64,000 nt of DNA from Halobaculum limi (lineage in GTDB: Archaea > Halobacteriota > Halobacteria > Halobacteriales > Haloferacaceae): positions 2,480,001 through 2,544,000 of the forward strand of contig NZ_CP120468.1 of the NCBI RefSeq assembly GCF_029490015.1, written 5' to 3'. This document shows, piece after piece, positions 37,711 through 41,282 of the stretch. The stretch's first letter is position 1. Every line of letters begins with the position of its first letter. The translations under genes and the position numbers were made by a program. Under the pieces are notes generated by a model that saw only the letters and a program-made list of their open reading frames with translations, had not been told where the DNA came from and did not search any database.

Positions 37711-37718
37711 CTTTATGC
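37711..37718 (+). promoter_or_regulatory. Probable TATA box of the GpgS-like gene
   Basis: CTTTATGC lies 24-31 bases before the ATG at 37742. An in-frame ATG at 37715 falls inside this element, so the later ATG is the true start. Confidence 0.6.
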
Positions 37719-37741
37719 GCCGCCCGCTCGTGGTTTCGGTA

Positions 37742-38875
37742 ATGGAGTACGTTCAGGAGCGGGTCGCCACCCTCCACGCCTTCGACGAGGGTGCGCCAGA
37801 AGCTCCGACCGACCGCGCGGCCGTCGTCGTTCCGATGACCGAGCGCGAGTACGCCGGTCTCGCCGCCGAGCGTGTCCTCTCGGAGTTGGAGGCGCTCGAC
37901 CCCGCCCGCGTCGTCGTCCCGTTGCGCGCCCCTGCAGAGCGAGTTGGCGCGTTCCGCGAGTGGCTCGGCGGCTTCGACCTCCCGCTGGAGACGCTGTGGT
38001 GTGACGGCCCGCGAATCGCGGAGTTGCTGGCCGACGCCGGCCTCGACGGCGAGCGTGGGAAGGGACGAGACGTGTGGCTCGCGCTCGGTCGGGCACTCGA
38101 CGAGGAGTTCGTCGTCGTCCACGACGCGGACACCAAATCGTACTCGCGGGCGTACGTCCGACGGCTGTTGTTCCCGCTCGCGAACGGCTTCGAGTTCTCG
38201 AAGGGGTACTACGCCCGCGTCGAGAACGACCAACTGTACGGACGGCTGTTCCGACTGTTCTACTCACCGCTGGTGCGGGCACTCCGCGACGCCAACCCCG
38301 GATCGGAGTTCCTCGAGTACATGGCGGCGTTCCGGTACGCGCTCGCCGGCGAGTTCGCCGCCACCAGCGACGTCGTCGCCTTGCTCCCCGTCCAGCGAAC
38401 GTGGGGACTCGAAGTGGGGACGCTCGCAGCGGCGTACGACACCGTCGGCGTCGACGGGGCGGCACAGGTCGACCTCGGGAGTTACGAACACGACCACCGC
38501 GCCGTCTCCGGGCCGACTGGCCTCTCGGACATGAGCCAGTCGGTCGGCGCGGCGCTGTTGCGCGCGGCGAGCGACCACGGCGTCGCCCCCGACTACGACA
38601 CGCTCCCGGACGTCTACCGCGACGCGGCGGACGACTACATCGAGGCGTACGCCGCCGACGCCGCGTTCAACGGGCTCTCGTACGACCGGAGCGGCGAACG
38701 CCGCCAGGTGCGCACGTACGCCGAGTCTATCGCCCCACCAGGCCCTGACACACGGCTTCCCGCGTGGTCGGAGACGTCACTGTCGCCGGCGGCCGTTGCG
38801 GAGGCCGCGCGTGCGGACGCCGCCGACGCCGCGACCGGCGATATCGACACCGACGGCGGAGAGCCGACCGCTTGA
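37742..38875 (+). CDS. Glucosyl-3-phosphoglycerate synthase-like glycosyltransferase (GT81 type)
   Basis: A 377-residue GT-A enzyme. It starts MEYVQERVATLHAFDEGAP. The N-terminal nucleotide-sugar region is VVVPMTEREYAGLAAERVL, the metal motif lies in EFVVVHDADTKSYSRAYVRR (DAD), and KGYYARVENDQLYGRLFRLFY and GLEVGTLAAAYDTVG are family-like. GpgS makes glucosyl-3-phosphoglycerate, a precursor of the compatible solute glucosylglycerate. The acceptor here is inferred. No phosphatase gene is adjacent. Confidence 0.78.
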   Translation: MEYVQERVATLHAFDEGAPEAPTDRAAVVVPMTEREYAGLAAERVLSELEALDPARVVVPLRAPAERVGAFREWLGGFDLPLETLWCDGPRIAELLADAGLDGERGKGRDVWLALGRALDEEFVVVHDADTKSYSRAYVRRLLFPLANGFEFSKGYYARVENDQLYGRLFRLFYSPLVRALRDANPGSEFLEYMAAFRYALAGEFAATSDVVALLPVQRTWGLEVGTLAAAYDTVGVDGAAQVDLGSYEHDHRAVSGPTGLSDMSQSVGAALLRAASDHGVAPDYDTLPDVYRDAADDYIEAYAADAAFNGLSYDRSGERRQVRTYAESIAPPGPDTRLPAWSETSLSPAAVAEAARADAADAATGDIDTDGGEPTA

Positions 38876-38970
38876 GCGTCGTCGACGCGACCGGATCGCC
38901 CGACGCGAGCGGCCACGGCATCGAGTGACACGACCGCACCGTTGAAGCCGGACGGGTGAACATAGAGGGT

Positions 38971-39570
38971 ATGGACTTCGAGCGCGTCCGTCACCACGCC
39001 CCCGTCCGCGTGACGGACGCCGAGCGACGGGCGGCGGTGCTCGCGGCGGTCATCGACCGCGGTGGGGACCCCCACGTCCTGTTCACCAAGCGCGCCGAAC
39101 ACCTCGGGAGTCACCCCGGACAGATGAGTTTCCCCGGCGGTGGCGTCGAGTCACACGACGAGGACCTCGTGGCGACGGCGCTGCGAGAGGCCAACGAAGA
39201 GATCGGACTCCTCCCCGAGGAGGCCGACGTCGTCGGCCGCCTCGACGACATCCAGACCGTCTCCGAGTACGCCGTCACGCCGTTCGTCGGCACCGCACCC
39301 GACCGCGAGTACGTCCCCAGCGACGACGAAGTCGCAGAGATAGCGATCCTCCCCATTTCGGAACTCACCGCACGCGAGAACTACGAGTCCGAGCGCCGCG
39401 ACCACCCGCACTACGGCGACATCCGCTTGCACTTCTTCCACGTCGACGGCTACACCGTCTGGGGCGCGACCGGGCGGATGCTCGTCCAACTGCTGGAACT
39501 GCTGACCGACTGGGAGATGCCCGCAGAGGTCGACCGCGTCGTCGACCCCGACGCCGACCTCCCAGTGTGA
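38971..39570 (+). CDS. Nudix hydrolase, CoA pyrophosphatase type
   Basis: A 199-residue enzyme. The complete Nudix box lies at about residues 57-79 (GGGVESHDEDLVATALREAN, then EEIG). The preceding TKRAEHLGSHPGQMSFPGG is the UPF0035/CoA signature of NudL-type CoA pyrophosphatases. It hydrolyses CoA or related dinucleotides. The ATG at 38971 is preferred to a GTG five codons earlier. Confidence 0.9.
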   Translation: MDFERVRHHAPVRVTDAERRAAVLAAVIDRGGDPHVLFTKRAEHLGSHPGQMSFPGGGVESHDEDLVATALREANEEIGLLPEEADVVGRLDDIQTVSEYAVTPFVGTAPDREYVPSDDEVAEIAILPISELTARENYESERRDHPHYGDIRLHFFHVDGYTVWGATGRMLVQLLELLTDWEMPAEVDRVVDPDADLPV

Positions 39571-39609: not shown

Positions 39610-39756
39610 TCACACGTAACTGAACACGACCAAGAGCGCGAAGAACGCGACGAGGATGCCGAACAACACGACGGCCGCGCGGACGGCCCCGCTGTTCAGG
39701 ACGCTCTCGTGGTCGTCGTCACCGAGGAGGGGTTGTCGTTGAGCGCCACCAGCCAT
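39610..39756 (-). CDS. Tandem SYV microprotein 1 (48 residues)
   Basis: A short frame: polar N-terminus (MAGGAQRQPLLGDDDHESVL), one hydrophobic helix (AAVVLFGILVAFFALLVVF) and a C-terminal SYV. The next two genes on the same strand end identically, with FF about eight residues before SYV. It is a likely single-pass membrane protein of unknown function, too short for many gene finders. Confidence 0.7.
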   Translation of the reverse strand: MAGGAQRQPLLGDDDHESVLNSGAVRAAVVLFGILVAFFALLVVFSYV

Positions 39757-39828
39757 AGTCGGACTCGCCGGTGCTCGCCGGTAGGCTTTGTGGTCACAGC
39801 GACACGTTGGGGCGTGGCCGTCGTCCGA

Positions 39829-39960
39829 TCAGACGTAACTCACGGCGACGAGCACACCGAAGAACAGAGCGAGGATACCGACCAACGCGAGTATCGCACG
39901 GACCTCACCAGAGATGCCAGGCGTCTGAACACCGCTGCCGTCAAGCACGTCTTCGTCCAT
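39829..39960 (-). CDS. Tandem SYV microprotein 2 (43 residues)
   Basis: A polar N-terminus (MDEDVLDGSGVQTPGISGEV), one helix (ILALVGILALFFGVLVAV) and the end SYV. It is aligned with its two neighbours over the whole helix and end. It lies 72 bases upstream of copy 1 and 53 bases downstream of copy 3. Confidence 0.7.
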   Translation of the reverse strand: MDEDVLDGSGVQTPGISGEVRAILALVGILALFFGVLVAVSYV

Positions 39961-40013
39961 ATCGAATGCCTGTTGGCTGTTCGACTAAAATACCACCGCT
40001 TACGTCGAATTTC

Positions 40014-40178
40014 CTACACGTAACTGATGACGACGAGCGCCGAGAAGAACAGGACGAGAAACGCTGCCATCAGGAGGCCAGCCTGCACCCACCCGTCGGC
40101 GCTGCCGAACCGTTCCGTGAGCGACCGCTCGCCGGACGTGATGACCACGGGACGGTCGGCGCCACCTCCGTCTGCCAT
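40014..40178 (-). CDS. Tandem SYV microprotein 3 (54 residues)
   Basis: A longer polar N-terminus (MADGGGADRPVVITSGERSL), one helix (AGLLMAAFLVLFFSALVVI) and the end SYV. It is the first of the three on the minus strand. Like the others it should place its N-terminus on one side of the membrane and end just at the far surface. Confidence 0.7.
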   Translation of the reverse strand: MADGGGADRPVVITSGERSLTERFGSADGWVQAGLLMAAFLVLFFSALVVISYV

Positions 40179-40251
40179 ACGCTACGCGTGACGCTGGACG
40201 GGCAAGAATCCCCGGTGTGATTGGCCGTCGTCGATACTGACGCGAACACCA

Positions 40252-40260
40252 CGTTTATTC
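40252..40260 (+). promoter_or_regulatory. TATA box before the short upstream frame
   Basis: CGTTTATTC lies 24-32 bases before the ATG at 40284. Transcription should therefore start at the short upstream frame, not at the main gene 135 bases further on. Confidence 0.6.
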
Positions 40261-40283: not shown

Positions 40284-40325
40284 ATGGCCGCACAGGCGAT
40301 GGATCGCGTTCCGCGACGGTCCTAG
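40284..40325 (+). other. Leader frame of 13 codons upstream of the DUF7388-type gene
   Basis: A short frame MAAQAMDRVPRRS ends in TAG. Its ATG is at the leaderless distance from a TATA box. It is in the same frame as the gene at 40419, and the 31 codons between the TAG and that ATG contain no further stop and keep G/C-rich third positions. It may be a regulatory leader peptide, a relic of a longer N-terminus broken by the TAG, or chance. Confidence 0.4.
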
Positions 40326-40418: not shown

Positions 40419-41222
40419 ATGACACTCTCCACATCCCACGCAGACAGCGTCGCCGCCCGAACAGGTCTCGACGGAGTCGCCCTCAAGCCGACCGAGTGCG
40501 ACGTCACCGTCGCCGCGGACCTCCCGTTCGAGGTGGTGTGCCTCGACTACGAGGGACGCGAGGCACTCCCCGACGCAGACACGCTCCAGGCCCTCGCCGG
40601 GCACGTGGACCTCCGCGTGACGACCCCCGTCCGTGCCGACGGCTTCGACCCCCGCGGCGACGACTCGCTGGTGTCGACGCTTCCCGACGCCGCAAAGCGC
40701 GTCCTCGTCGCGGGCCACGGGGCGTACCTCACCGACGACGAGCGCCGGCGAGCGATCGCTCCCCGACTCGGTGACGCCGTCCGCGCGGTTCGCGCGGCGG
40801 GCAGTGAGCCGTGGGTCGGCACCGAGGGCATCGAACGCGTTGCACTCGCGGCGGGCGGCGTCCAGTACGATCTGCTGTCGCGGACGACCGATCGCGACCT
40901 CCGAGCGTTGCGTGCAGCGGGGTTCGACGGCGAGACTGCCGTCTACGCGCCGGTCGTCCCCGTCGACGACGAGGACGCCGTCCTCGACGCCGTGGGCGCG
41001 TACACTGCGCGGCGCAAGCCCGTCCGCGAGGCGCTTCCCGAGGACGCCGAAACGGATTCGGCGGCGACGGGGCGTGCTCGCGAAGTGCTCTCGAAGGCCG
41101 TCCGCGACTTCGCGCTCGTCGGCGACCCGGACACCGTCGGCGAGCGTGTGGCCGATCTTCACGAGGCAGGGGCAGACTACGTCGTCGGGTATCCGGCGGC
41201 TGGGGTCGACACGCTGCGGTAA
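40419..41222 (+). CDS. DUF7388-type protein, probable barrel fold
   Basis: A 267-residue soluble protein: GLDGVALKPTECDVTVAADL, FEVVCLDYEGREALPDADTL, RVTTPVRADGFDPRGDDSLV, then EPWVGTEGIERVALAAGGVQY and a C-terminal DFALVGDPDTVGERVADL that resembles the luciferase-like monooxygenase end. I know it as a haloarchaeal family of unknown role (number from memory). The start at 40419 is the first ATG after the leader frame; leader length about 135 bases is unusual here. Confidence 0.72.
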   Translation: MTLSTSHADSVAARTGLDGVALKPTECDVTVAADLPFEVVCLDYEGREALPDADTLQALAGHVDLRVTTPVRADGFDPRGDDSLVSTLPDAAKRVLVAGHGAYLTDDERRRAIAPRLGDAVRAVRAAGSEPWVGTEGIERVALAAGGVQYDLLSRTTDRDLRALRAAGFDGETAVYAPVVPVDDEDAVLDAVGAYTARRKPVREALPEDAETDSAATGRAREVLSKAVRDFALVGDPDTVGERVADLHEAGADYVVGYPAAGVDTLR

Positions 41223-41282
41223 TCGCGTCACCGAGACACACGCTACCCCAACCGACTTGTCGCTCGACTCACAGCCAGCGGT

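Follow-up and report, generated by a model that had tools for sequence, protein, structure and literature searches.

Tandem single-helix microproteins ending in SYV form an apparently lineage-restricted gene family in Halobaculum and two related genera

A family of small genes between a Nudix gene and DUF7388

Three short frames that lie in tandem on the minus strand of Halobaculum limi, and whose products all end in the residues SYV, are, as judged from sequence comparison, real genes of one family whose three copies are homologous and not convergent. The window analyzed here is a stretch of 64,000 nucleotides. The initial annotation had described three minus-strand frames of 48, 43 and 54 codons, which are present at exactly the positions it gave, and had attributed to each of them one hydrophobic helix with FF and the SYV end; all three possess both, the helix being C-terminal. 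SYV gene A (40014..40178, minus strand) encodes 54 amino acids, MADGGGADRPVVITSGERSLTERFGSADGWVQAGLLMAAFLVLFFSALVVISYV; paralogue 2 (39829..39960, minus strand) encodes 43, MDEDVLDGSGVQTPGISGEVRAILALVGILALFFGVLVAVSYV; and paralogue 3 (39610..39756, minus strand) encodes 48, MAGGAQRQPLLGDDDHESVLNSGAVRAAVVLFGILVAFFALLVVFSYV. An SYV end occurs in only one of the 683 other ORFs of at least 20 amino acids in the window, and that ORF is non-hydrophobic.

The family comprises 24 members, distributed over 14 genomes from three genera. The argument for real genes, and the existence of homologous short frames in related genomes on which the initial annotation had made its reading depend, are thus upheld by these homologues, and the first also by purifying selection and by promoter-like elements belonging to the genes themselves. 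A search with the 54-residue gene A protein finds its orthologues in nine of the ten other Halobaculum genomes and a relative in one further genus (the third genus, L011). For gene A, mean pN is 0.204 vs a pS of 0.366, with pN below pS in 43 of 45 pairs; for gene B, the values are 0.096 vs 0.350, with pN below pS in all 28 pairs. GC3 is 0.92 over the SYV family and falls to 0.70-0.83 when the three genes of the window are taken by themselves.

Homology among the copies was assessed with profiles built from one type only. With the A-only profile, 11 of 14 other members score above the best of 560 decoys, each made of a shuffled helix and a shuffled head, and paralogues 2 and 3 reach 25.4 and 25.6 bits vs 18.3 for the best decoy. 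With the B-only profile, 15 of 16 other members exceed the best of 640 shuffled decoys, and the same two paralogues reach 23.7 and 27.8 bits vs 16.5. With the A profile, g16_025_B, g16_327_C and Hb007_B stay below the top decoy, as Hb008_A does with the B profile; what ties these members to the family is either the second profile or synteny. In 11/11 Halobaculum genomes, the degenerate pattern FFxxLxxxSY[V/A]-stop has matches at the SYV locus and nowhere else (reversed control, 0), and nine genomes of other genera contain none. The reading of these frames as chance ORFs or non-coding sequence has a negligible probability: homologues, the locus-limited pattern, selection and the cross-profile scores all contradict it, and no point remains in its favor.

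The three last residues, which had been described as conserved, are so throughout the family. S and Y are invariant in 24/24 members and V-1 is kept in 21 (the ends are SYV in 21, SYA in two and SYL in one). The codons of these final residues differ (AGT/AGC, GTC/GTG), as do the stops, which places the constraint on the level of the protein. The conserved end might be either the membrane-edge anchor or the recognition tag that the initial annotation had suggested. The N-terminus had been called polar and variable; it does differ between the three paralogues, but among orthologues it is conserved. In the 24-member comparison, types A and B each have a conserved head that is unlike that of the other type: M(S/A)DxGGADRG..GS.DGWV in A and M(D/N)(I/L)SNL..DDGGRSVVQSSRV in B, each kept among orthologues.

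Phylogenetic spread and genomic context

Members are found by profile search in 11/11 Halobaculum genomes, including those of H. gomorrense, H. saliterrae and H. litoreum, with one to three copies each. A second genus contributes two species, G025 with two copies and G327 with one, and a third genus a single species, G028. Since copy number varies from one to three and gene A or gene B is missing from some species, neither type alone is indispensable.

Synteny next to the Nudix gene, which the initial annotation had suggested as a check, is kept in 14/14 genomes: the SYV genes occupy the gap between this gene and DUF7388 and are encoded on the strand opposite to both. The Nudix hydrolase gene (38956..39570, plus strand) is CoA pyrophosphatase-like, its best NCBIfam match being below the curated cut-off, and the DUF7388 gene (40419..41222, plus strand) matches PF24114 with an E-value of 8.7e-121. 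Other haloarchaeal families have the two side by side with no SYV gene (L023, L024, L032, L034); for this reason the SYV genes appear to have entered the gap later, within the lineage to which Halobaculum and its relatives belong, and the Nudix and DUF7388 genes are probably neighbors only. A relative of glucosyl-3-phosphoglycerate synthase (NF040724, below the curated cut-off) is encoded just before the Nudix gene, at 37715-38875 on the plus strand, and adjoins it in other Halobaculum genomes too. An Rfam match to SNORD48 at 41206-41239 on the minus strand, which overlaps the 3' end of DUF7388, scores 23.8 bits against a gathering threshold of 36 and is probably due to chance.

A spread across haloarchaea, for which the initial annotation had suggested a search, was not borne out: when 391 Halobacteria genomes were scanned with a loose pattern, blind to SYA and SYL ends and to residues other than F at -10 or L at -7, this gave convincing syntenic members in Halobaculum and two related genera only, with the remaining matches at about control level. 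Among these remaining matches, those inspected in G259, G189, G067, G359 and G183 are not small membrane proteins of the SYV kind. A class-wide profile search of 292 genomes, whose first look scored 23 candidates per genome, returned Halobaculum, G025 and G028 only; matches elsewhere, with E-values of 0.01-0.05, are unconvincing. Profile searches are insensitive for short hydrophobic proteins, and this one did not reach FF-less variants such as that of G327, which was found by synteny, so divergent members may exist. No SYV gene lies beside the DUF7388 loci of other genera (L012-L041), and in five more genera from the same taxonomic family none adjoins DUF7388 or the Nudix gene. Searches of Pfam, NCBIfam, PHROGs, PADLOC and PDB sequences gave no relative of the three SYV proteins. 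The SYV family is apparently narrowly spread, lineage-restricted and so far undescribed.

A 45-residue single-helix protein ending in FSYV is encoded in genome G116 (L123, 4241-4378, minus strand), at another locus, between Amt/PII-like genes and hemL. It has no relatives in 60 genomes and is probably a case of convergence, unrelated to the SYV family.

Protein anatomy and topology

The three window proteins and their relatives have a single C-terminal hydrophobic segment and no N-terminal signal, as tail-anchored proteins do. The AlphaFold model of gene A (54 residues) consists of a helix at residues 27-53, with pLDDT of about 94-97, preceded by an uncertain N-terminal part with pLDDT of about 54-62. 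Over the last 25 residues of the 24 members, L-14, F-10, V-6, S-3 and Y-2 are invariant, and F-11, L-7, V-24, L-18 and V-1 nearly so. The conserved positions are mostly on one side of the helix, with a periodicity that is marginal (permutation p 0.046-0.105, depending on the stretch chosen), which is suggestive of a packing face made of L..FF..LV..SY.

All charged residues, Arg and Lys included, lie on the N side of the helix. According to the positive-inside rule, this distribution suggests that the N-terminus is cytoplasmic and the C-terminus at the outer membrane edge. Judging from the length of the proteins, insertion would be largely post-translational, since the helix should still be inside the ribosome tunnel at the end of translation.

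Promoter-like signals and a conserved mini-ORF

The 24 regions upstream of the SYV genes share an AT peak at -31..-25 from the start codon (mean AT 0.67 vs a median of 0.33), and a TATA-like element is found 25-31 nt ahead of the start codon in most of the genes. In the window, this element is ATTCTTG for gene A (40203..40209, minus strand; -31..-25) and TATTTTA for paralogue 2 (39986..39992, minus strand; -32..-26), while paralogue 3 has a weak AT element only; in the G028 member the AT element is at about -50. Leaderless transcripts make up 72% of the protein-coding transcripts of Haloferax volcanii (PMC4983044). As the spacing of the AT element is that of leaderless genes, such transcripts are expected here, and each SYV gene is likely expressed from its own promoter as a separate leaderless mRNA.

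On the plus strand, a mini-ORF, MAAQAMDRVPRRS-stop (40284-40325), precedes DUF7388. Its consensus, M(A/V)(A/S)Q(A/T)MDRVP...stop, has 11-14 codons and is nearly invariant in many haloarchaeal genera. The pattern CARRCNATGGAYMGNGTNCC, which permits synonymous codons, matches once each in 39 of 116 Halobacteria genomes (control, 0), and all 39 matches are situated about 50-230 nt upstream of a DUF7388 match; its GAT and GTT codons show no synonymous alternative in any of them. An in-frame stop follows within four codons of the core in 46/46 distinct examples, and in the other two frames a stop within five codons occurs in 0/46 and 1/46. There is an AT peak at about -29 of the ATG. The RNA fold of its transcript is not out of the ordinary (z 0.9), Rfam gives no match, and a search of the open literature available did not retrieve the core peptide string. 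The mini-ORF is a candidate for a leaderless leader peptide or a uORF that controls DUF7388, and one could argue that it is more unusual than the SYV genes themselves. Ahead of its start, at about 40229-40260 on the plus strand, there is a conserved stretch, ATACTGAC.CGAACACCACG(T/C)TTATT, with equivalents in L001-L011, L014, L018 and L046. This stretch sits in the divergent gap on which SYV gene A also borders, and is possibly a promoter together with a regulator site.

Possible functions of the SYV proteins

We tentatively propose, by analogy and with slightly less than an even chance of being right, that the SYV proteins are tail-anchored single-helix microproteins which, as regulators or accessory subunits, pack against a larger membrane protein or against one another. 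The N-terminus would be in the cytoplasm, and the single helix would reach the second-last residue, leaving S-Y(-V) at the outer membrane edge, where Tyr and the terminal carboxylate may hold the end of the helix in place at the surface of the membrane. Contact with the larger protein, or between copies, would be made through L-14, F-11, F-10, L-7, V-6, S-3 and Y-2. The common helix and SYV end would give all copies the same partner, and the conserved cytoplasmic heads specific to each paralogue could give each copy a different input. There is precedent for a single-helix regulator that packs on a membrane protein in AcrZ-AcrB (PMC7267776) and CydX (PMC6005532). Against the proposal, the genes on either side run on the other strand, encode predicted soluble enzymes and offer no functional link; the periodicity of the conserved helix face is weak, and species that lack gene A or gene B show that neither type alone is essential. 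An archaeal sorting or assembly code, in which paralogues with different heads join one membrane machine and a dedicated partner reads L..FF..LV..SYV, is conceivable but improbable.

Three other readings are weaker than that of accessory subunits. The paralogues could form homo- or hetero-oligomers among themselves, as a scaffold or small channel and with no larger partner; we consider this unlikely. The 4-3-4 spacing of the shared L-18, L-14, F-11 and L-7 speaks for it, as does the fact that tandem paralogues have the helix in common and not the head, but species with a single member exist, so hetero-oligomers are not obligatory, and Phe-rich faces with no polar residues are unlike a pore lining. 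More doubtful is a recognition tag, in which -S-Y-V-COOH would serve, for example, as a class I PDZ ligand ([S/T]-x-hydrophobic-COOH) for a membrane or extracellular PDZ protease, an insertase or a sorting factor. Neither S-3 nor Y-2 varies across the three genera and the several types of paralogue, and the end fits S-x-V, to which the 21 SYV members and the SYL member conform. The two members that end in A fit poorly, however, and the helix extends to residue -2 (53 of 54, in a single-chain model in which unwinding is possible) with no linker or extended tail; moreover, as the helix above it is conserved too, the tail does not form a module of its own.

It is also rather improbable, and somewhat more so than the PDZ-type tag, that these are membrane-active peptides in the manner of the type I toxins Ldr and Ibs, curbed by antisense RNA. 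Small size, one hydrophobic helix and tandem copies in variable number agree with such peptides, yet the chromosomal locus is fixed in 14/14 genomes and looks vertically inherited, the cytoplasmic heads are conserved and under purifying selection, and the C-terminus has no positive residues. PADLOC and PHROGs gave no match for the SYV proteins.

The SYV genes add a testable and apparently undescribed membrane microprotein family in archaea, where few have been studied. With their tandem paralogues, near-fixed C-terminus and different heads, they represent a natural experiment on how a single helix picks its membrane partner.

Comparison with known systems

Several known systems resemble the SYV proteins in part. 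Type I toxins (Ldr, Ibs, TisB, Hok) are likewise small and hydrophobic, and Ldr and Ibs are also multicopy, whereas the SYV proteins have conserved cytoplasmic heads, a fixed locus, an uncharged C-terminus and no known antisense RNA. Tail-anchored proteins, clients of Get3/TRC40 or Oxa1-type factors, share with them a soluble N-terminal part, a single C-terminal helix and the lack of a signal peptide, but the SYV proteins are much shorter than classical clients and have nothing past the helix except SYV. AcrZ (with AcrB), CydX (with cytochrome bd) and KdpF are similar in having about 30-55 amino acids and one helix, and packing on a larger membrane protein is what we propose for the SYV proteins as well. 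These bacterial proteins have no sequence relation to the SYV family in Pfam, NCBIfam or PDB sequences; unlike them, the SYV proteins have neighbors that indicate no partner, are haloarchaeal, occur as up to three tandem paralogues and keep a near-fixed SYV end.
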